Source of the DNA: a virus
DNA: 40,449 bases
Virus record (IMG/VR): IMGVR_UViG_3300044695_006420
Span: 1 to 40,449 of that record
Strand: one strand, 5' to 3'
The position numbers and the translations under genes are program-made. This document shows, piece after piece, positions 4,473 to 40,449 of this stretch; positions within the stretch are counted from its first letter, which is position 1; each line of letters starts with the position of its first letter. The notes below the pieces were generated by a model, which saw only the letters and a list, made by a program, of their open reading frames with translations, was not told the DNA's origin and searched no databases.

Positions 4473-4907
4473 TTACCTTTCTTTTAAAATTTCTTTAATA
4501 ACCCTTTTAATAACAGATTCATCAATATCACCTTTTCTTTTCTCATCGTGACCATGAACACTTGTATAAACACTAAATGGTAAAAATCCCAAATAATCAA
4601 GATAAAATGTTTCATCGAGTTCATCAATATACCAAGTAGTTTTACTATAGTAATTATCAGCCCAATACTGATAATGGTCTTTACCATTTTTTGTTATAGA
4701 ATCAATAATAATATCCATATCACCAACAGCATCTGTCCCTTCACCAACAACACTTCTAACAACGATATGAAATTTAAATTCATAGACCATATCTTGCGTG
4801 ACATTGTTAAACCCATCATAAACATTTTCAGTATCTGTGAGCATCATTTCAAACTCCTTGTTCTCAAAGAGTTTCTTTAACATATTTTTCAGTTTAGTAT
4901 TCACCAT
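4473..4907 (-). CDS. Hypothetical protein with tag-like C-terminus
   Basis: A 144-aa protein that begins MVNTKLKNMLKKLFENKEFE. The middle (residues about 25-115) alternates beta strands, e.g. DMVYEFKFHIVVRSVVGEGT and DMDIIIDSITKNG. The last 15 residues, ESVIKRVIKEILKER, look like the N-terminal tags of other proteins here (IVKRVIKE, HILKEE) but sit at the C-terminus. It overlaps the stop of 4894-5250 by 14 bp, so the two are cotranscribed. The function is unknown. Confidence 0.7.
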   Translation of the reverse strand: MVNTKLKNMLKKLFENKEFEMMLTDTENVYDGFNNVTQDMVYEFKFHIVVRSVVGEGTDAVGDMDIIIDSITKNGKDHYQYWADNYYSKTTWYIDELDETFYLDYLGFLPFSVYTSVHGHDEKRKGDIDESVIKRVIKEILKER

Positions 4908-8200: not shown

Positions 8201-9241
8201 TTAACAATAATTATTCTTGGTATCAATAAAGAAATCCCTAAACTGTGATTTATATCCATTATCCGCAAGATACTCATATATCTCATCGTATAAGTCATAA
8301 CTTCCGATTTCATCACATACTTTCTCAACAGCGTTTTGCATTGAAGAAATAACATAATAATCAACCTCACTATCCGTCCAATAATCACAAACATCGTTGG
8401 GATCCAATTCACTCATATATTGATCAATAAACCCCAATCTTCGTTGAGCTCTACTACGTAACATCTTGTCTTCATCTTCGGTGATCACATCATCCCCCTC
8501 GTTGAAGATAGTGTCGATAACATCAGAGAAATTTAACCCCATATCAGAAAGACCAAGTCTATCGGTAATTTCACCATCCAAATAAGATTTACCCTTATCG
8601 GTAATATACATTTCGTATTCTTCACCTTTAGGACTTATTCTCTCTTTGTATATGAATGGTTCCCCATCCAAAACAAAATAATAGAGGGGTCCATACACAT
8701 CAATATATCGTTGAATTACTGATGTACCAATTGACTTTAAGAATTCTTTTGGTAGTTGATTAGGTGAGGTGATCTCTCGAATACTATTGATTAGATCCTC
8801 ACCCAATAGTTTGGTAAATAATCTTTTCTTTTTATCAACATTCTCATTGATGGGTTCCCCCTCGTTGGAATACATTTTAATAATATCAGAAAACCTCAAA
8901 CCCAAAACATCGATTCCAAGTCTCTCGGAGAATTCGTCTTTAATATAAAGATGACCATATTCATCAACGAACCAATCTTTACCTCCTCTGTCTTGATAAA
9001 GATATTCATAATCACCAAGTTCAAAAAAATACATGGGACCAAAAGCCTCTATAAACGACATGGCTGCGTTTAAACTAATACCCCCTTTTCTAAAAAACTT
9101 ATATGGGACATCAAAAGCTTTGGTTATTTTTTTAAACTTACCTGTGAAGTCAATACCCATATGATTGGTTAAGAACTTTTTGTTTTTTTCTAAGTTCTCC
9201 AATAGATAGACATACTGTGATTCTTTAATGAGGTATTTCAT
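8201..9241 (-). CDS. Tagged protein with internally duplicated domain
   Basis: A 346-aa protein that begins MKYLIKESQYVYLLENLEKN. Residues about 30-130 and 150-250 are two copies of one domain. AFGPMYFFELGDYEYLYQDR aligns with VYGPLYYFVLDGEPFIYKER, and SERLGIDVLGLRFSDII with TDRLGLSDMGLNFSDVI. Each copy is followed by an [I/L]-x-E tripeptide (INE at 131-133, ITE at 253-255). A third, unrelated, acidic helical segment (260-346) ends the protein. A prohead-type protease could therefore cut it into three modules. A TATTTAT box lies 5 nt before the ATG. The domain itself was not recognised. Confidence 0.75.
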   Translation of the reverse strand: MKYLIKESQYVYLLENLEKNKKFLTNHMGIDFTGKFKKITKAFDVPYKFFRKGGISLNAAMSFIEAFGPMYFFELGDYEYLYQDRGGKDWFVDEYGHLYIKDEFSERLGIDVLGLRFSDIIKMYSNEGEPINENVDKKKRLFTKLLGEDLINSIREITSPNQLPKEFLKSIGTSVIQRYIDVYGPLYYFVLDGEPFIYKERISPKGEEYEMYITDKGKSYLDGEITDRLGLSDMGLNFSDVIDTIFNEGDDVITEDEDKMLRSRAQRRLGFIDQYMSELDPNDVCDYWTDSEVDYYVISSMQNAVEKVCDEIGSYDLYDEIYEYLADNGYKSQFRDFFIDTKNNYC

Positions 9242-12608: not shown

Positions 12609-12866
12609 TCATACAGTCTTTAATTCTATTACAAACACATATGGAAACATATTTGACATATCTTCCTTTATTGTTTCTCTTACAGTATTTTTTTCTCTCC
12701 CCCGTTCTCTTTTAAGGTATAGATCGTAATCTCTACTTGAGATATGTATATTGATCAACACAACACCAAAATATTCCACCAATCCCGTCTTAACCTCAAA
12801 ACGATTATATGGTAATGGGCAGATCATTTTAAAGTATTCTGATATTCTATGTTCTAACTTAGTCAT
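12609..12866 (-). CDS. Small alpha/beta paralogue, array member 4
   Basis: An 85-aa protein that begins MTKLEHRISEYFKMICPLPY. It has the same plan as the three genes upstream: an N-terminal helix, two strands (FEVKTGLVEYFGVVLINIHI), a helix (NTVRETIKEDMSNMFP) and a last strand (YVFVIELKTV). Sequence identity to them is low. It overlaps 12863-13159 by 4 bp and ends the four-gene operon. The function is unknown. Confidence 0.65.
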   Translation of the reverse strand: MTKLEHRISEYFKMICPLPYNRFEVKTGLVEYFGVVLINIHISSRDYDLYLKRERGREKNTVRETIKEDMSNMFPYVFVIELKTV

Positions 12867-13159
12867 CTTCTTGGTTTAATTATATACTCGTGTAAAAGCG
12901 GTATGGTGGCATCATTTGGGTAATTGATATATTTTACTTTAACCACGAAATCTAATTGTGGAAGATACCTTTTTAACTGCGCTCGTATGTTCCTAACGTC
13001 TTTGTTATCTCTTTCATTGTTAATTCTATATAACACCCAACTTCCTTTAAGATCTACCTCAACATCAATTCTATATACCCCATCTTCTCGCAAACGGATC
13101 TCTAACGGGAGATTAACCTCATCAATAAGGGTTTCTATGTATTTGGTTAGATCTTTCAT
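12863..13159 (-). CDS. Small alpha/beta paralogue, array member 3
   Basis: A 98-aa protein that begins MKDLTKYIETLIDEVNLPLE, nearly the same start as 13160-13408 (MKDLSKYIESILD) and 13408-13644 (MKDLSGYIDTLLD). Strands (EIRLREDGVYRIDVEVDLKG, SWVLYRIN), a helix (KDVRNIRAQLKRYLPQ) and a final strand (LDFVVKVKYINYP) follow. It abuts 13160-13408 with no gap. The start resembles the MKDLI..ILKEE tag but lacks the L-x-E end, so it may be a decayed or uncleaved variant. Confidence 0.7.
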   Translation of the reverse strand: MKDLTKYIETLIDEVNLPLEIRLREDGVYRIDVEVDLKGSWVLYRINNERDNKDVRNIRAQLKRYLPQLDFVVKVKYINYPNDATIPLLHEYIIKPRR

Positions 13160-13710: not shown

Positions 13711-14232
13711 TCATCTATTTAAATAACCATCTATTATTTCTTGCACTTCAGGATTATCTCCTGTGTAAATTATATCAATAACGTATTTGCGTAGTGGGTA
13801 TATTTCATCAGTTAGTACTCTTTCTTCCAACTCTTTTGATTTATCTTTGTATTCGTGTGTCGGGTCTATTGCATCGTAGTTAAATGGTTCGACCCTGTAT
13901 TTTGTTTTTAACTTATCTTTGTCTAATACAAATGTAATGTTTGAATCTTCTATTGGTGAATCCAAACCCACACCTATTGTTTGATTTGGAACCCACTCCT
14001 TATCTCTTGTAAAAGAAATAGCACGTTGTGTTCTTGTGTTGGCTAATCTCTTGTCTAATGTAAGATAATAATCTGATGGGAGAGTTCCTCTTAACGAATC
14101 TAAATTAATAATATCAATACCTCTACTTGTTGAGGTTTTATGATACAATGGTGTTCCTTGTATATCTTCTAACTTTTCAGATATGACCCCCATCATTGAT
14201 TGTATTCTTGATATTTGTTCTTGTAGGTTCAT
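13711..14232 (-). CDS. Tagged ADP-ribosyltransferase-like protein (tentative)
   Basis: A 173-aa protein. It begins MNLQEQISRIQSMMGVISEK, a separate tag class ending in I-S-E. The domain from about residue 27 has the order seen in many small phage proteins and ART-like enzymes: PLYHKTS (H31), a helix and RGT, a Y-rich stretch, AISFTRDKEW (73-80), a strand (ITFVLDKDKL), and KELEERV (E136/E137) before a final strand (YVIDIIYTG). An H...[S/T]...E layout fits the diphtheria-toxin/PARP-like ART fold, but NAD binding cannot be shown here. It overlaps 14229-15341 by 4 bp. Confidence 0.45.
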   Translation of the reverse strand: MNLQEQISRIQSMMGVISEKLEDIQGTPLYHKTSTSRGIDIINLDSLRGTLPSDYYLTLDKRLANTRTQRAISFTRDKEWVPNQTIGVGLDSPIEDSNITFVLDKDKLKTKYRVEPFNYDAIDPTHEYKDKSKELEERVLTDEIYPLRKYVIDIIYTGDNPEVQEIIDGYLNR

Positions 14233-15341
14233 TTCTTTTTCTTCTTAACACAGTTGGGATATCGTTTACCAAACATTGTCTTCATACCTTTTTGGGTATA
14301 TCCTTTCCAACATCTCTCGGTTAGTTCTTCTTCTTTCATTTCCCTTTGTTTACCCATACCTTTAAACACTTTTCTAATGTTTTTAGGTAATGAATTGATT
14401 GGTATTATCTTCGCTTTGATTGTTTTTAATTTGTGTCTTACGGCTTTCTGCGCTCTGTGATGTCCGTCTATAATTGAAATAAATTCATTATTGTCATCAA
14501 CAAATATTAATATCGGGTATTGTAAATCCGACTTATCAATTTTCTTAATTTCTTCCTCATCACCATCCCAACTTAATAGGTGTGGTTTTAACTCTTCTAC
14601 CGAAACTCTTTCTACAGGAATATCTTCAGTTGCATTTAATAAATCAATAAGAGTTATCTTATCACCCTCGTCGTTTTCCCAAGATGTGTCGTGTAGACCT
14701 TCTTTCATTTCTTCTTCTTTTCTTAATGGATTTTTCCTCTTACATTCATTTTCCCAATACTCTAAAGTTGAATTCTCATACTTATCTTTTAAGTATTTTT
14801 GTATATATTCACTGGCAACATCCCAATCATCATCACTTACCGTTTCACTGAACCAAGCGTGGTATAAATCTTCTAATGTCCTCTCATAAAGAACACCTAA
14901 TAAAATGTTAGGATTTCTGTAGTTACAAAAAAGCCTGTGGTATCTGCTTCTCATCTCTTTAAACATTTCATCAATTAGATGGTGTCTTCTTAAAACTTGT
15001 GGTGGTATTTTTGATTCACTAATTTGTTTTGGGTGTTCTATTCCCATAAATTTTTTACATTCCATACCATCGGAAATAGATACATATACCGTTAATGGGA
15101 TCATATTATTAAGATAATCTTGTAGTTCTTCTCGATAAGAAGTCTTAAGTGATTGATCCACCATCATAATAATTAAATATTGATTTTTAGTGTTATCAAT
15201 TTTCTTCACCACCAATTTACATATATCAAAATCAACATAGTCAAGTACCATCTTTTTAATTAGATTTGCATAATCACGTTCTGAGGTTCTCATTGATATC
15301 TCCTCTTCTAATACCTTTCTTATGTGTTTTTTAAGATTCAT
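14229..15341 (-). CDS. Tagged ParB/Srx-like protein with basic tail
   Basis: A 370-aa protein. The ATG at 15341 gives MNLKKHIRKVLEEEISMRTS, a relative of the HILKEE tags, and sits 5 nt after a TATTTAT box. Residues about 25-100 resemble the small alpha/beta module of the 12.6-13.6 kb array. Residues about 245-315 form a ParB/sulfiredoxin-like domain (VERVSVEELKPH; YPILIFVDDNNEFISIIDGH, then HRAQKAVRH, the GxHR signature). The last 30 residues (LTERCWKGYTQKGMKTMFGK, then RYPNCVKKKKK) form a basic Cys-containing tail directly after L-T-E. ParB-like domains can bind nucleotide or cut DNA, and which applies here is unknown. Confidence 0.6.
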   Translation of the reverse strand: MNLKKHIRKVLEEEISMRTSERDYANLIKKMVLDYVDFDICKLVVKKIDNTKNQYLIIMMVDQSLKTSYREELQDYLNNMIPLTVYVSISDGMECKKFMGIEHPKQISESKIPPQVLRRHHLIDEMFKEMRSRYHRLFCNYRNPNILLGVLYERTLEDLYHAWFSETVSDDDWDVASEYIQKYLKDKYENSTLEYWENECKRKNPLRKEEEMKEGLHDTSWENDEGDKITLIDLLNATEDIPVERVSVEELKPHLLSWDGDEEEIKKIDKSDLQYPILIFVDDNNEFISIIDGHHRAQKAVRHKLKTIKAKIIPINSLPKNIRKVFKGMGKQREMKEEELTERCWKGYTQKGMKTMFGKRYPNCVKKKKK

Positions 15342-15346
15342 ATTAG

Positions 15347-15353
15347 ATAAATA
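15347..15353 (-). promoter_or_regulatory. TATTTAT promoter-like box
   Basis: TGTATTTATC on the minus strand, 5 nt before the ATG at 15341. Confidence 0.45.
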
Positions 15354-15367
15354 CACAGTAGATGTGT

Positions 15368-16574: not shown

Positions 16575-16606
16575 CAAATATAAGAAAATTATTTGACTAA
16601 TCCCAA
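16575..16606 (-). promoter_or_regulatory. Bacteroidota promoter
   Basis: TTG (16606-16604), 21-nt spacer, TATATTTG (16582-16575), then 5 nt to the ATG at 16569. Confidence 0.6.
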
Positions 16607-17907
16607 TAACCTTCTTCAATTGTTTCCATCATCCAAGAAATGATTGATAGTAACTCGTCATTAGTTAGGGTGTTAATTGATGTTAGGTATTGTTCGGTTT
16701 GCTCTGTATATCCATATTCATCTTCTTCATATCCCCATATTTCAACAGCAATTTGGTCGCTGTCTTGTACTAATATATCATTAACATACTTGGTATTACT
16801 TAATGGTAATTTTAAAGCAAAAAGAGAACCAATAGCCTCACTAGTGGACCCACCATGTTCTAAAACAAATTGTCTGATATATTGTTTTAATATTTCTTTG
16901 GGGTTATCTATTTGTTTTATCAACGACCTAACTTGATTAAAGTCTAATCCTGTCATTTCAATTAAGTGGTATAGTCCGTCTTTTTCTATTAGTTTGATTA
17001 GTGATTTTTCTTTGATGGATGATTCATTTAAACTCTTGTCCCACCATCTTTTTGTTCCACATTCAGGAATTAAGGATGTACTTACAAAAAAGTTTTTTAT
17101 TGGTAAGAAATCACGTATCGTTTGAATTACTTCAAGTCTCATATCCTTAATATAACTATTCCCCAATATTGTACCTGTTGTCTTTCTTACATCTTTCATC
17201 CCAAAATTTAACTCAATAATATATGTCCCTTCATCTAAGAATTGTTCATCACCAAAGTCGTGTGTAACTTTAATGTCACAAACACCATCCTCATTTTTAT
17301 ATGGTTCTACAATATCTTTAATTATGTTAAGATACTTTGGTTGTTTTTCTTCTGACTCGTTTAAAGTTTCAGTTCCACCATAAAGTTTATCGTGTAAATC
17401 TTCAACTTCATTAAGGGAAAAATCCCAACCACCAAATAAATCAATGTTTTCTCCATTTATTTCTTTAACGGCAAAATAATTTGTGTTGAATATTCTACCA
17501 TCATCAAATTTACTTTTAAATGCGCTATGTTGAGCTTCGTCGTATAAGTACTTAATCATAGACTTGAAGTCTTCGTTTTCTTCTGGTGTTAATTTGTTTT
17601 CATCATATAAAACATTTATTTCAGGCCAGTAGTTAGTTCTAGGAATATTACTATGTCTACCAATTATTTCATAATCTAAAGGAAATTTTATATCTCCATA
17701 AGCAACAACAGGATAATAAAAAGTAATTGTTCCTGTTAGTTTCTCAAATAAAGAACTAAATTCAGGATCTCCTTTGAATATCTTTTTGAGTGTTGAGATT
17801 CCTCCAACCAACTCCGCAGCATCAAAAATATTACCATTTTCAATAACTTGTTTCAAACTCTGTTGGATTCTGTTTTCTTTTAAGATATGTCTAATTAGTT
17901 CCCTCAT
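16597..17907 (-). CDS. HILKEN-tagged three-module protein
   Basis: A 436-aa protein that begins MRELIRHILKENRIQQSLKQ. Two LNES tripeptide-plus-Ser sites (182-185 and 293-296) split it into three parts. The first (1-180) and third (297-436) both open with a similar helical motif (SLKQVIENGNIFDAAELVGG / SLIKLIEKDGLYHLIEMTGL). The middle part (186-290) has the helix-strand-strand-helix-strand plan of the small paralogue array. The sites fit [I/L]-x-E protease specificity, so it may be a polyprotein. It overlaps 17904-18545 by 4 bp as the last gene of a five-gene tagged operon. Confidence 0.7.
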   Translation of the reverse strand: MRELIRHILKENRIQQSLKQVIENGNIFDAAELVGGISTLKKIFKGDPEFSSLFEKLTGTITFYYPVVAYGDIKFPLDYEIIGRHSNIPRTNYWPEINVLYDENKLTPEENEDFKSMIKYLYDEAQHSAFKSKFDDGRIFNTNYFAVKEINGENIDLFGGWDFSLNEVEDLHDKLYGGTETLNESEEKQPKYLNIIKDIVEPYKNEDGVCDIKVTHDFGDEQFLDEGTYIIELNFGMKDVRKTTGTILGNSYIKDMRLEVIQTIRDFLPIKNFFVSTSLIPECGTKRWWDKSLNESSIKEKSLIKLIEKDGLYHLIEMTGLDFNQVRSLIKQIDNPKEILKQYIRQFVLEHGGSTSEAIGSLFALKLPLSNTKYVNDILVQDSDQIAVEIWGYEEDEYGYTEQTEQYLTSINTLTNDELLSIISWMMETIEEGYWD

Positions 17908-18545
17908 TGTCCTTTTAATCTTCTGTATTCAGCACCATTAAGTTGTTCTAAATAAGTTTGTTCAATCCATCCTGGTAATCTCTCTTCCCACCACAATATA
18001 TCCTTCATTTTATATTTTCCGGTTTTAAGAATAAGTTCTATCATTTCCTCCTCAGTTACATCATCAGGTTTTGTTATCGGTGGAAAACAAATATCACCGT
18101 CACTACTAGACACATTAAGTTCAGAAATGTAGATATCATTTCTACCCATCTTTTTTTGAATCTCACCTAAATAAGTATCATCAAACCATTCTTCAAGAAG
18201 GTATCTTAAATAACTTACTCTCATAGGAAGATCTGTGGTTAAATCATTAAATACATTTTTTGGAATACTTATAGACCCGCTATCAAGACTTCTTTCTTCA
18301 GTTTTTCTTTTGTCGTCATCACCACTGTAATCAGTATCAAAATATAAAGTAACACCCAATATTTCTTTTCCGTTTTTACAAAATTCAAAGGTATGTGTTG
18401 ATTCATAATGTTTTTTATGATACATTTGCACACCATCAAAATAGTTATTCAACCATCTGTAGACAAGTTGTTCTACTTTTGGTGTGGGTTTAGCATATTT
18501 TCTACTAACCTCTTCTTTTAATATGTGTCTAATCAAATCTTTCAT
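17904..18545 (-). CDS. HILKEE-tagged protein
   Basis: A 213-aa protein that begins MKDLIRHILKEEVSRKYAKP. Residues about 27-140 resemble the domain in 6436-6753 (WLNNYFDGVQMYHKKHY; LRYLLEEWFDDTYLG; NDIYISELNVSSSDG). A Pro/Glu linker and a helical C-terminal segment (EEMIELILKTGKYKMKDILW, then WEERLPGWIEQTYLEQL) follow. The last part resembles C-terminal helices of phage structural proteins only loosely. It overlaps neighbours by 1 and 4 bp. The function is unknown. Confidence 0.7.
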   Translation of the reverse strand: MKDLIRHILKEEVSRKYAKPTPKVEQLVYRWLNNYFDGVQMYHKKHYESTHTFEFCKNGKEILGVTLYFDTDYSGDDDKRKTEERSLDSGSISIPKNVFNDLTTDLPMRVSYLRYLLEEWFDDTYLGEIQKKMGRNDIYISELNVSSSDGDICFPPITKPDDVTEEEMIELILKTGKYKMKDILWWEERLPGWIEQTYLEQLNGAEYRRLKGQ

Positions 18546-18985
18546 TATGCGTCGTATTCGTCTTGAGATATTATAAACTCTAATGTAACTATAAATGGTT
18601 CACTACCATAACTACCCCATTTCATACCGATTGGAGTACAATTCATAAACCAATCATTGTCATAGTTAGGCCCTCTTTTTATTAGACCACCGTTTTCAGT
18701 GAAAGTGTATTCTTTGTATATAGAAAAAATTTTATCTTCTAAAGAATTTATATGTTTTCCAAGTCCACCAAAATCATGATCTTCATAATAAGAATTAACG
18801 GTAAGCTTTCCTTCGATATAATGAAATTTTGGATCAAATTTAATCTCACTTATTTCTAAAGAATCTACATCTGAAGAAATATTAACTTCAAAAATGTATT
18901 GGAGTTTCTGCATAGATTTTTTGAATCTCTGTTCAAGATTACCATCCTCTTCTTCTTTTAATATATGTCTAATCAAATCTTTCAT
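18545..18985 (-). CDS. HILKEE-tagged protein
   Basis: A 146-aa protein that begins MKDLIRHILKEEEDGNLEQR. The remainder looks like the small alpha/beta module: helix RFKKSMQKLQYIFEV, strands (SLEISEIKFDPKFHYIEGKL), helix (LEDKIFSIYKEYTFT), and a final strand pair (EPFIVTLEFIISQDEYDA). It overlaps both neighbours by 1 bp. The function is unknown. Confidence 0.7.
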   Translation of the reverse strand: MKDLIRHILKEEEDGNLEQRFKKSMQKLQYIFEVNISSDVDSLEISEIKFDPKFHYIEGKLTVNSYYEDHDFGGLGKHINSLEDKIFSIYKEYTFTENGGLIKRGPNYDNDWFMNCTPIGMKWGSYGSEPFIVTLEFIISQDEYDA

Positions 18986-19308
18986 TACATTACATCGTAT
19001 AAAAATTTCTTAATTGTTCTCACAATTTTTTGTCTGTATGGATCATTCTCGTTCGCAAAGTTGTTAACAGTTTCAATGACATTATTTTCTTGTAACATAT
19101 TCAATATAATCCTTATCTGTTTTTTTTTACTATCCCACATTGATATTCCATAATAATCATCATCTACCTTAAAGTATAACTCTTTAAACTTAATTCTGTC
19201 ATCAATATTAACCTCATTAATTTTATATCTTCTTCTTAAGAAATTAAAAACATTTTGGTCAATTTCTTCAGTTTCTTCTTTCAATATATGTTTTATAAAC
19301 TCTTTCAT
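18985..19308 (-). CDS. HILKEE-tagged small protein
   Basis: A 107-aa protein that begins MKEFIKHILKEETEEIDQNV. It has strands in the middle (IKFKELYFKVDDDYYGISMW) and a helical C-terminus (IETVNNFANENDPYRQKIVR). It overlaps neighbours by 1 and 4 bp within the tagged operon. No domain was recognised. Confidence 0.7.
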   Translation of the reverse strand: MKEFIKHILKEETEEIDQNVFNFLRRRYKINEVNIDDRIKFKELYFKVDDDYYGISMWDSKKKQIRIILNMLQENNVIETVNNFANENDPYRQKIVRTIKKFLYDVM

Positions 19309-19751
19309 ACAAAAAAATATTTGTCAGGATCTATTTCTTTTGGTTCGCCCCATTTATTAAATATTATTAAATTTTCAGGTAACATTTCATAAATGTCGTT
19401 TAATTCTTTTTTAAATTTACGATATTCTTGGAATTTTTCATCTCCAGTCATTTTTTCACCTATTTCAAGAATTGTGAATGGGTAAGCATAATCATCATCT
19501 TTAATCTCTTCGGCCTTTTTTTTGTAATACCATTTTAAATCACTATTGTAGAATTCTTTCGTTTTTTCAATATCGCAAATAATATCAATGTTAATATAAG
19601 TAGCCCTTTCAGAATGTTCTTCAGTATATTTCCACCCAATGACGTATGGGTAACTTTTTTTCAACATCTTTATTGCAAGATCAATTCCTTTTTTTTCGTT
19701 TTTAGAATTTTCAATTTCTTCTTTAATAACACGTCTAATTAGATCCTTCAT
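19305..19751 (-). CDS. VIKEE-tagged protein, first gene of operon
   Basis: A 148-aa protein when started at 19751 (MKDLIRRVIKEEIENSKNEK). An upstream in-frame ATG at 19778 would add nine residues encoded by the TATTTAT box itself, so the later start is chosen. The rest is alpha/beta: helix (GIDLAIKMLKKSYPYVIGW), strand (ATYINIDIICDIEK), a long charged helix and an aromatic end (LIIFNKWGEPKEIDPDKYFF). It heads the operon 19751 to 16597 and is divergent from the plus-strand gene at 19791 over a 39-bp spacer. Confidence 0.7.
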   Translation of the reverse strand: MKDLIRRVIKEEIENSKNEKKGIDLAIKMLKKSYPYVIGWKYTEEHSERATYINIDIICDIEKTKEFYNSDLKWYYKKKAEEIKDDDYAYPFTILEIGEKMTGDEKFQEYRKFKKELNDIYEMLPENLIIFNKWGEPKEIDPDKYFFV

Positions 19752-19757
19752 ATTTTC

Positions 19758-19764
19758 ATAAATA
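19758..19764 (-). promoter_or_regulatory. TATTTAT promoter-like box
   Basis: GATATTTATG on the minus strand, 6 nt before the ATG at 19751. It is the likely promoter of the five-gene tagged operon. Confidence 0.45.
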
Positions 19765-19778
19765 TCAACTATTTTCAT

Positions 19779-38249: not shown

Positions 38250-39775
38250 GTTACCGTATAATTAAGTGCCTTTTCTTTAATCGCCCAAGCACCACCGGCG
38301 TTTATATTAAACTTAAATCTTTTTGTTATGTTAATATTTGTTCCCAAACTAGGTATTACAACATATGGTGACTTTAATAACAAGTCGTTGTAATAACTGA
38401 TGTATGGTGAGTAAACAAATAAACCCATCAATTTCATATCAATTCTTTTTCCAAATCTCAAATCGTACATCCCTCCGGCAATTACGGCAGTTCCCAAAAA
38501 CTCTGTCTTGTAAACTTGTCCGTAAGAAACTGTACCCATATAAATAGCCTTCAAACTTTTTATCTTTGGGAAACTCAACATCTGTCCTCCCGCAATTGTA
38601 CCGTAGATTGATCCTCTACCTTCAAACCCAACTGATAAGGTTCCTGATAATAAGTTAACAGATCTTTTATTGATCCAAGCGTGATACCCTGTTAGGTTTG
38701 GTCCTTGTTGTGCTGACACATAGTCAATTAGACCACCACGAGCGGTTTCACCATCCCATCTCATATTGTGATAGCCACCTGTTAATTTTAATCCTGTTCT
38801 AACTTCAGAGTTTTGAAAGTTAAAACCCACAAAGTCGCTTGATGCGATTACTGTGGGTTTACCACCTTCCTTATTCTGATTTACTGTTTTTGTCGCCCCT
38901 TGTGTGATGTTGGTTTGTCCTCCACCTTGTTCTTCTGTTACTTCTTGTTGGTTAGATCCTTCCACATTCCCATTACCCCCAGTGTTACCAGTGCCCCCAA
39001 CATTGCTACTACTATTAGTGTTATTATTATTTTCATTTCCATTTTGATTTTGATTTATAGGCGTGACAGCCTGTTGACTTCCATTCTCATTTGATCCACC
39101 CTCAGCTGTAGTTCCTCCTGCTGGTGTTGGATTTTGAGTTCCACCATTTGGATTAGTGGTCCCATTTCCTCCGTTGTTTGAACTTGTTTCATTTGTTCCA
39201 GAAGTGGTTGTACTTCCTTCATTAGTGTTACTTGTTCCATTGTTTTGGTTTTGATTGTTATTGGTCGTGGTATTACTATTATTTGTTGTTGTGACATTAT
39301 TATTATTTCCACTTCCATTTTGGGAACTATTCCCATTCTTCTTATTACCTTTTGAATTATTGGTATTAGAAGAGTTAGATGCCGCAGTTATTGATCCACT
39401 TAAAAAATCTGTTGCTCCGTTTGATAAATCCATCAATGCCGATAATGAATTCAAAAGTCCAACCGTATTAAGTGTTACATCCTGCGTAATGTTTATTTGA
39501 CCACCAAGACCTACAATCTCAGCACAAGGTGATCCGTCATATTGTGAAAAAACTTGGTTAGTCCAAGTTTCAAATGTTCCATCCGTAAATTGTTGTTGAG
39601 TAAAGTTCTCAACAAAACCATAATACCCCACCGTGACTGAGCCATTGATGGGGATTATGATGTTTTTAATGTTTCCTGTACAAGGATCGGTGTAAGAATA
39701 GTTATAGGTTTGAGCATTTGATTTAAAAAAACCAAATAAAATAAACAATAACGATATGATTATTTTAATTTTCAA
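38219..39775 (-). CDS. Exported Asn/Ser/Gly-rich protein, CsgG-associated
   Basis: A 518-aa protein. Signal peptide MKIKIIISLLFILFGFFKSN, a small Cys-containing domain (about 22-130), a long linker rich in Asn, Ser, Thr, Gly and Gln (about 132-300), and a folded C-terminal part (about 300-518) with YHNMRWDGETARGGLIDYVS and strand-like segments that resemble a beta-barrel (KMDLKMLMGLFVYSPYIS-like, SLGTNINITKRFKFNINAGG). It overlaps the CsgG-like gene by 4 bp, so it may be the exported or partner protein of that channel. Function is inferred only. Confidence 0.65.
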   Translation of the reverse strand: MKIKIIISLLFILFGFFKSNAQTYNYSYTDPCTGNIKNIIIPINGSVTVGYYGFVENFTQQQFTDGTFETWTNQVFSQYDGSPCAEIVGLGGQINITQDVTLNTVGLLNSLSALMDLSNGATDFLSGSITAASNSSNTNNSKGNKKNGNSSQNGSGNNNNVTTTNNSNTTTNNNQNQNNGTSNTNEGSTTTSGTNETSSNNGGNGTTNPNGGTQNPTPAGGTTAEGGSNENGSQQAVTPINQNQNGNENNNNTNSSSNVGGTGNTGGNGNVEGSNQQEVTEEQGGGQTNITQGATKTVNQNKEGGKPTVIASSDFVGFNFQNSEVRTGLKLTGGYHNMRWDGETARGGLIDYVSAQQGPNLTGYHAWINKRSVNLLSGTLSVGFEGRGSIYGTIAGGQMLSFPKIKSLKAIYMGTVSYGQVYKTEFLGTAVIAGGMYDLRFGKRIDMKLMGLFVYSPYISYYNDLLLKSPYVVIPSLGTNINITKRFKFNINAGGAWAIKEKALNYTVTCGARLLVGQ

Positions 39776-40449
39776 TTTGGAAATACACCTTTTGTGATTA
39801 ATCTAGAAACAACTCTTGACGATGCTGTCTCTAAGGCTTTCTTTGTAGAAATACCTATAGTTGATTGATTGAATTTTACCTCATCACTAATGTCCCCTAA
39901 GATTGATGAAGTTTTAATTGTTACCGCTTCACCAAGTCCTGAACCTACGATCACTTGACTTGTTTCAGCATCTACAAATTTGATTTGGAGTCCTAATCTT
40001 GTAGTTTGATTTACGGTTTGTTGTCCATTAACTTTTACAACTTCGTCCTCCGATACTGAGAAGTCATAGACCTCAATATAAACAAAGTACTTAGCCAATA
40101 CAACATTACCTTTCACTTCTATTTTGTTTGAGGATACTCCCTTGTCTGATGCTTTGTCTTGAGCGATCATTCTTTGTTTGATGTCTTCCTTTTCTTCTGT
40201 GAAAATAAATCTGTTGGTATATTCCAAATATTCAATAACGATGTTTGTTACACCAAGACCTACTCTTTTATCTTTTAACTCAGGATACATTTCATATAGT
40301 TCCTCATTGATACCAATCTTTAACAATTGGATCGGAACCTGAATCTTTCCATCGTAATCTGCTACCACATCTATTGATTGTTTCTTTTCAAACTCAGCCT
40401 GATATTGTTCTGTCTTTACAGTACCAATACCCCCTCCGTTTTGAGGGGG
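39772..40449 (-). CDS. CsgG-like secretion-channel protein (partial)
   Basis: The frame is open to the right edge without a start; an in-frame GTG at 40368 is not used because the frame continues upstream (PPQNGGGIGTVKTEQYQAEF...). The CsgG pattern is visible: RVGLGVTNIVIEYLEYTNRF, AKYFVYIEVYDFSVSEDEV, TTRLGLQIKFVDAETSQVIV, GSGLGEAVTIKTSSILG and KALETASSRVVSRLI. CsgG forms the outer-membrane pore that exports curli subunits. Homologues occur in Bacteroidota and, as I recall, in some marine phages. It heads the operon of exported proteins. Confidence 0.7.
   Translation of the reverse strand, partial: PPQNGGGIGTVKTEQYQAEFEKKQSIDVVADYDGKIQVPIQLLKIGINEELYEMYPELKDKRVGLGVTNIVIEYLEYTNRFIFTEEKEDIKQRMIAQDKASDKGVSSNKIEVKGNVVLAKYFVYIEVYDFSVSEDEVVKVNGQQTVNQTTRLGLQIKFVDAETSQVIVGSGLGEAVTIKTSSILGDISDEVKFNQSTIGISTKKALETASSRVVSRLITKGVFPN

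Follow-up and report, generated by a model that had tools for sequence, protein, structure and literature searches.

Several described systems resemble the locus analysed here. The internal head proteins of phage T4 (IPI-IPIII and Alt) are small mature proteins made with a short N-terminal leader that ends in L/I-x-E. IPII and IPIII begin MKTYQEFIAE/A (a slash marks a boundary), gp23 has FLTE/A near residue 65, and gp24 begins MAKINELLRES, which holds two L/I-x-E motifs (INE and LRE), the second followed by Ser. T4 gp21 cuts after L/I-x-E; in the T4 capsid-targeting sequence (CTS), residues 4 and 7 serve entry and targeting and residues 8 and 10 serve processing, an Asp at position 10 preventing processing while leaving targeting intact, and the phage packages and delivers foreign proteins that have been engineered to carry a CTS (PMC9026906). 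The leader of the T4 capsid protein is 65 residues long, and Alt is cut at ITE and LTE (PMC5694885). As to what such cargo does, IPI acts as an inhibitor of a restriction system, and on one E. coli strain T4 requires IPIII, which probably counters a defence there (PMC9391042).

In SPN3US and phiKZ, the gp21 relatives gp245 and gp175 cut many head proteins after Glu at a short motif, with several cuts per head protein (PMC5694885, PMC10052503, PMC9026906). Polyvalent proteins are multi-domain mosaic chains, presumed to be packaged and then to give rise to several effectors, which their authors compared to the polyproteins of RNA viruses (Iyer et al. 2017, PMC5512222). The bS21-encoding jumbo myoviruses of Bacteroidetes measure 293-331 kb and carry bS21 on the reverse strand within a terminase-portal-protease-capsid cluster; the best-placed relatives of this phage group are predicted to infect freshwater Bacteroidetes, and in the main text of that source the words "polyprotein" and "cleavage" have 0 occurrences each (PMC9723584). 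The components are thus known already: a capsid-targeting sequence with a prohead protease, giant-phage head proteins that are cut several times (PMC5694885, PMC10052503), and packaged polyvalent proteins (PMC5512222). A natural, reshuffled cargo string joined at prohead-protease sites was not found in literature that was partly accessible and included few subscription papers or preprints.

The window, that is, the whole stretch of DNA analysed, is an entire IMG/VR virus record of 40,449 bases. One of its minus-strand genes (16597..17907) is a single ORF of 436 residues (P0001, starting MRELIRHILKEN), whose product is in our view probably a tag-led capsid cargo polyprotein, cut by the prohead protease into proteins of about 20, 13, and 16 kDa. 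Nine of the related records encode, as T4 does, a prohead protease of the T4 type (Peptidase S77). However, in the T4 cases covered by the sources above each CTS precedes one mature protein, whereas here as many as eight recognised units follow a single tag, most of them preceded by a site, and their combination changes from phage to phage. By sequence, the units showed no relationship to T4 proteins. The repeated cuts in SPN3US and phiKZ break up propeptides, and the accessible parts of those sources describe no string of separately mature cargo. With three units, and 22 arrangements in relatives, P0001 fits among the polyvalent mosaics of two to fifteen domains, but the release of polyvalent effectors is ascribed to embedded peptidases (PMC5512222), whereas the sites described here match a separate capsid protease. 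None of the described polyvalent domains (e.g. ART, zincin, and PBECR) gave a Pfam match above cut-off in P0001, unit G, or unit Z.

Three parts in one window gene

The protein opens with the 11-residue tag MRELIRHILKE (residues 1-11; 17875..17907, on the minus strand like all features of this gene), a predicted capsid-targeting propeptide that ends L-K-E and fits a 10-20-residue leader ending in L/I-x-E. Unit A (17356..17874) would comprise residues 12-184 (20.0 kDa) if the chain is cut after E11 and after E184, the latter within an LNES at residues 182-185 (17353..17364). Unit B (residues 185-295, 13.0 kDa; 17023..17355), a small alpha/beta fold in the structural model, runs to a second LNES at residues 293-296 (17020..17031), where the cut would follow E295, and unit C (residues 296-436, 16.3 kDa; 16600..17022) completes the chain. 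Both LNES are predicted prohead-protease sites, and the predicted products A, B, and C are acidic (pI 4.4-4.9). The initial annotation had placed the ORF and both LNES exactly, in coordinates as well as residues. Among 20,000 shuffles of the sequence, two LNES arose in 2 and at least one in 286. When 11 relatives are aligned, N294, E295, and S296 do not vary, and E184 and S185 as well as the tag residues L9, K10, and E11 hardly do.

An AlphaFold model of P0001, made with the 11 relatives, had a mean pLDDT of 72.2 and a pTM of 0.41. Stretches with pLDDT below 50 (1-9, 139-142, 179-189, 218-225, 285-297, and 432-436) take in both LNES sites and the tag, and in addition two loops within units (139-142 and 218-225) and the C-terminus. 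The proposal that the LNES sites divide the protein into three parts was borne out by these low values at both sites and by the occurrence of A, B, and C apart from one another elsewhere. Two finer statements of the initial annotation held in part. The first and third parts were said to open alike: their models each start with four helices, but the sequence likeness is weak and confined to a helix-turn motif of 23-24 residues (hhalign, 64% for the heads alone, 14% for the whole units, and 4.9% with smaller alignments), so that a common origin of A and C is possible from the alignments. The middle part was said to have the small alpha/beta plan of neighbouring single-domain genes; the plan appears in the model (helix-strand-strand-helix-strand), but homology of unit B to small window neighbours was not established by comparison (e.g. 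11.9% against 12863-13159). The hhalign scores of unit B against other units of the same strings (78.6% over 36 columns with unit E and 48.5% over 85 with unit F) suggest that it may be related to them.

Searches of known families and folds added little. P0001 had no match in Pfam at E 1, in PHROGs below E 0.04, or in NCBIfam below E 0.1, no peptidase domain was recognised in it by these profile searches, and tblastn against 50,697 GenBank phage records gave no match. Some other units and strings had no Pfam or NCBIfam family above cut-off, and none of 88 pattern matches to unit C in bacterial genomes was a relative. With the P0001 fold, Foldseek returned no match at E <= 0.001 in PDB or BFVD. 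VIA-align placed unit B (188-285) near the C-terminal domains of cation transporters, with MamB as the best match (Z 8.6, 78 aligned residues, 3.4 A); this borderline score may reflect only a common arrangement in the model, and A and C are barely covered by that list.

Exchangeable units and the sites that join them

Searches of viral contigs returned six loci with P0001 and eleven with its middle part, several on the same contigs, and 16, 24, and 32 loci with units C, A, and G, many on shared contigs. The relatives range from 325 to 966 aa in length (one, L003, is cut by the contig end, and the tag-A-C gene of L004 has a GTG start), and the compared sequences are kin, some nearly identical, so the counts given here are not independent. 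Profile models of eleven unit types matched 63 non-redundant ORFs among the 1113 distinct ORFs of the loci, a set that left out L019-L026. Thirty ORFs carry at least two recognised units, in 22 distinct arrangements; three of the 30 are cut by contig ends, and A-E-F-D and D-G-F are known only from such cut ORFs. Arrangements include A-C (L002), A-E-F-G-D-H-B-C (L001), and D-B-C (L018, which belongs to the 291,867-base record G007), and the joints read LNES, MNES, INES, VNES, LRES, LKES, or LMES.

What follows unit A varies: E in nine cases, F in three, C in two, B in one (the window), a second A in one, other sequence in four, and the end of the chain in five. The initial annotation had held that a continuous domain across the LNES sites would speak against separate parts; none was seen in the relatives, where A's site precedes these varied units. 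L002, without unit B, differs from the window protein by exactly one whole LNES-to-LNES step. The window gene is itself a mosaic, its unit A being 83% identical to that of L002 and 43% to that of L001, and its unit C 84% and 86%, respectively. These sequence comparisons show that, in related phages, the sites are where units become joined or lost and where their order changes.

The initial annotation had proposed that its modules would turn up as separate tagged genes in other genomes, and they do. Unit A occurs alone as a tagged gene (e.g. L090:3558-4097 and L081:6001-6540), as does C (L011:7108-7569 and L008:9777-10193), and in two ORFs B comes immediately after a tag: LKES and a further part come next in L053:2582-3280, and a tail in L008:9346-9774. 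Unit G is likewise a single tagged gene in L111:5959-6396, and unit Z in four loci. The occurrence of units as tagged genes elsewhere supports the description of P0001 as fused cargo with cleavable links, of which cleavage itself is what we infer.

Embedding in longer proteins was also found for three tagged genes just upstream in the window and for one unit of a fourth, all on the minus strand. The adjacent gene (17904..18545; MKDLIRHILKEE) corresponds to residues 259-469 of a longer L011 protein, behind SLKESIKNVLDEE, with 40% identity. The gene at 18985..19308 (MKEFIKHILKEE) recurs within longer proteins of L001, L002, L044, L049, L065, and L066, its counterpart sitting behind internal tags in five ORFs, with L066 as the sixth. 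The gene at 19305..19778 is found behind unit A via LNES in L060 (24% identity, E 9e-9), as part of the "other sequence" counted above after A's site, and behind an internal tag in L003 (54%). The fourth is the second multi-unit tagged protein of the window (8201..9241), whose first unit lies inside an L052 polyprotein behind LNEN. This protein has an internally repeated unit with the boundaries PINENVDKKKR and VITEDEDKML, and its first unit is also present in a G007 gene. A further candidate, 39775-40290, was rejected as an embedded tagged gene because it merely has a different start codon.

Breaks in homology coincide with the sites. In 14 ORFs, 60 of 220 trimmed homology-segment ends lay at most 3 residues from [LIMV]xES, against 9.0 expected and a maximum of 21 in 2000 draws, although the ends are not independent and the shared motif alone can extend a match by up to four residues. 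This test, run with default BLAST gap costs and with end points in proteins without any site dropped, superseded an earlier untrimmed one, in which 33 of 158 ends fell no more than 5 aa from a site and 9.1 were expected. Segment starts concentrate on the first two motif residues and segment ends on Ser. The unit models had been cut at sites, and therefore a separate count was restricted to ORFs outside the models: [LIMV]xES marked 40 of 61 internal unit starts (4.5 expected, maximum 13 of 2000) and [LIMV]xE marked 49 (18.7 expected, maximum 30). Unit starts without a nearby [LIMV]xE, 16 of 114 overall and 12 of 61 in ORFs outside the models, are explained partly by the imprecision with which unit starts were set; non-canonical sites are LNEG in L004, IYES in L044, and LYET in L053. 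The motif [LIM]NES occurs 60 times in the 18,066 aa of multi-unit ORFs (3.3 per 1000 aa), 0 times in the 22,534 aa of the G007 structural block (ORFs 88-134), and 14 times in 89,942 aa representing all G007 ORFs except three strings. For the looser [LIMV]xES, the counts are 109 in multi-unit ORFs, 22 in the structural block, and 141 in other G007 ORFs; L/I-x-E is short and occurs also where no cut is expected.

Clustering of segment ends at the sites would also be seen if LNES were a conserved DNA recombination sequence and its amino acids incidental. We hold this explanation to be very improbable, given that 31 [LIM]NES sites in the 14 ORFs use 19 different DNA 12-mers, with Ser encoded 22 times by TCN and nine times by AGT, so that the protein sequence is conserved and not the DNA. 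Units also start at the same point behind N-terminal tags.

N-terminal and internal junctions differ in what is conserved. Across 37 distinct N-terminal junctions the entire tag is conserved, with Ile at P-7 in 29 of 31 and Arg or Lys at P-6 in 28 of 31. Across 89 distinct internal junctions, positions P-15 to P-4 all reach at most 0.83 bits of relative entropy, against 2.25 bits at P-3, 2.27 at P-2 (Asn in 59 of 89), and 2.61 at P+1 (Ser in 67 of 89); P-3 and the Glu (P1) were imposed by the search pattern, whereas P-2, P+1, and the absence of upstream conservation were not. Set beside the roles of residues in the T4 CTS, this pattern suggests that internal junctions shed the entry residues and retained the cutting residues. 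Some strings retain a complete internal tag (RLQESIRSILRED in L008 and YLKESIRKVLKEET in G007 ORF274), and the tag of L018, ILRES/VDKSE, continues like the internal LRES/VDKSE of L012 and L016.

The same junctions bear on the alternative that real fusions enter the head but work as an uncut chain, as the unprocessed virion RNA polymerase of N4 does, LNES being a flexible linker left by fused tags. Model confidence is indeed low around the sites, where the chain is probably flexible, certain multi-domain proteins that phages package are not cut (PMC5512222), and homologous giant-phage head proteins vary in being processed or not (PMC5694885). However, if the site were only a scar, it should have decayed as the remainder of the tag did, whereas P-2 and P+1 are kept, across differing codons, where P-15 to P-4 are not, and the predicted leader end of the capsid protein has the same motif. 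On balance, an uncut chain seems unlikely to us, and we return below to processing at the sites.

Protease, capsid protein, and tagged genes in related phages

Peptidase S77 (PF03420) was found above cut-off in 9 of the 25 IMG/VR records holding the units. Neither the window, a 40 kb fragment, nor 15 of the 24 other records had a match above cut-off, and fragments cannot prove absence; the huge phages LR745206, LR756502, and LR756501, found via their DHH gene, had S77 matches only below cut-off. In G007, the S77 protease is clustered with a gp23-type capsid protein, a T4-type portal, and bS21 (matches to PF03420, PF07068, PF07230, and PF01165, the last at 7.5e-10). There bS21 lies on the opposite strand beside the portal, protease, and capsid genes, a likeness to the bS21 jumbo phages of Bacteroidetes (PMC9723584) that holds for G007, the window's 40 kb lying outside that cluster.

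In all nine S77 records, two of which are identical over the stretch compared, the conserved leader of the capsid protein ends in [LI]NE/[AS] (LINE/A in eight and LLNE/S in G023). From the T4 case, the capsid protein is predicted to be cut at this leader end, and the presumed capsid site and the sites of the strings thus have the same residues before the cut. The protease in related records, this shared capsid motif, and the selective retention of cut-site residues strongly suggest, at the level of sequence, that the strings are cleaved at their sites.

Adjoining the capsid gene, G007 ORF171 (L034:12874-14421) and its counterparts in eight records encode an acidic, scaffold-like protein. It has several L/I-x-E-S sites near its C-terminus, as expected of a core protein cut many times.

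Tag and sites could instead serve another sorting step or protease, such as an embedded zincin-like unit or another phage compartment. Some strings (G007 ORF274 and L107) do have an HExxH unit, weakly SprT-like below cut-off, and embedded zincin peptidases are thought to process polyvalent proteins (PMC5512222). Yet no zincin-like unit was recognised in P0001, unit Z occurs in one of the 30 multi-unit ORFs, and the motif matches both the gp21 rule and the capsid-protein site; against another sorting route, tag-like heads, recognised by eye, also stand on G007 ORFs 168 and 169 beside the capsid gene. We rate this explanation as distinctly improbable, below that of an uncut chain, and retain processing by the capsid protease.

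The two chains with an HExxH unit (L039:4716-6308, which is G007 ORF274, and L107:452-1303) end in that unit behind a complete internal tag, and the G007 HExxH unit is also a single tagged gene in four loci, weakly SprT-like in one. A Pfam search of units G and Z gave no match above cut-off; one Z gene had a weak SprT-like match (0.0067) below it. The idea that unit G is an ADP-ribosyltransferase was unsupported, Pfam giving only DUF5820 below cut-off and the model of the region being poor (L001 residues 184-725, mean pLDDT 54), and its PDB matches, the best being EGFR at E 0.009, were taken as chance.

Tags extend well beyond the strings. Four tag classes, written by eye (LIRHILKE, IITExQ, RLTESDL...INE, and NLQENIRRI), stand on many otherwise unrelated genes. 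They were found on 49 of 347 G007 ORFs, where shuffled heads predict 0.49 (maximum 3 of 200), and are dense at 210-270 kb, where the strings lie (37 of 93 ORFs), and sparse at 30-120 kb (1 of 83). In the window, 20 of 70 minus-strand ORFs have a tag, overlapping ORFs counted. The second, ITE class, seen in the window as MKIIITE, resembles the ITE and LTE ends at which the T4 Alt leader is cut.

Other observations concern the ends of proteins. The window ORF 4473-4907 (minus strand) has the tag-like VIKRVIKEILKER at its C-terminus instead of its N-terminus. The C-terminal motif ERCWKGYTQKGMKTMFGKRYPNC of 14229-15356 (minus strand) is common to proteins of T4-like cyanophages and recurs in several tagged window proteins and inside an L002 chain. 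In the three huge phages found via the DHH gene (LR745206, LR756502, and LR756501; loci L019, L020, and L021), many protein heads, among them MISKYNQFINEE, MLRKYGQFINEE, and MVKRYKQFINEG, are similar to MKTYQEFIAE, the leader of T4 IPIII. A pattern written after seeing those heads matched 6 of 40, 4 of 44, and 7 of 36 ORFs in the three loci, with shuffled means of 0.5, 1.0, and 0.4. The DHH gene of the window is tagged MEKLIRRIVKEQ, and in two of these three phages the DHH gene has an IPIII-like head. A 488-aa ORF of the 735 kb phage LR756501 (L021:18441-19904; head MLKNYWTYIKES) has repeated units, each ending in RWYKKGKLNES, KGKLVNE, KGKLLNE, or similar, with two LNES in the ORF; it may be an independent string, bounded by L-x-E, of a huge phage that is only distantly related.

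Predicted loading and release of the cargo

In the mechanism that we propose, the 11-residue tag would act like the T4 capsid-targeting sequence and carry the whole chain into the prohead; packaging in the head is something we infer by analogy with T4. During head maturation, a T4-type prohead protease (Peptidase S77) would cut P0001 after E11, E184, and E295, at (L/I/M)-x-E, and so yield equal numbers of three compact proteins (about 20, 13, and 16 kDa). Together with the DNA, the released proteins would pass down the tail and take effect at an early stage in the host, and small single domains may be needed for passage through the tail tube. For what the units may do there, the inhibition of restriction by IPI and the probable anti-defence role of IPIII serve as the model. 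Such genes likely originated when neighbouring tagged genes fused in frame; the targeting part would then have decayed while the cut site was retained.

A broader reading, which we hold with somewhat less confidence than the polyprotein assignment but still favour, is that these jumbo phages have an evolvable system of cargo loading, in which one entry tag leads as many as eight effector units in an exchangeable array, the capsid protease releases them equally inside the head, and fusion, loss, and reshuffling take place at the sites. If so, a phage could change its injected arsenal while keeping its packaging signal.

If the assignment of P0001 is true, tag and sites would provide a reading rule for the accessory genes of a jumbo-phage group, one that tells which are likely virion proteins and where each mature protein starts and ends. 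The strings would parallel in nature the engineered T4 tag fusions, and they would amount to a polyprotein strategy of DNA phages with the capsid protease as the releasing enzyme. The contents of the jumbo-phage head and its early attack on host defences would then become directly testable.
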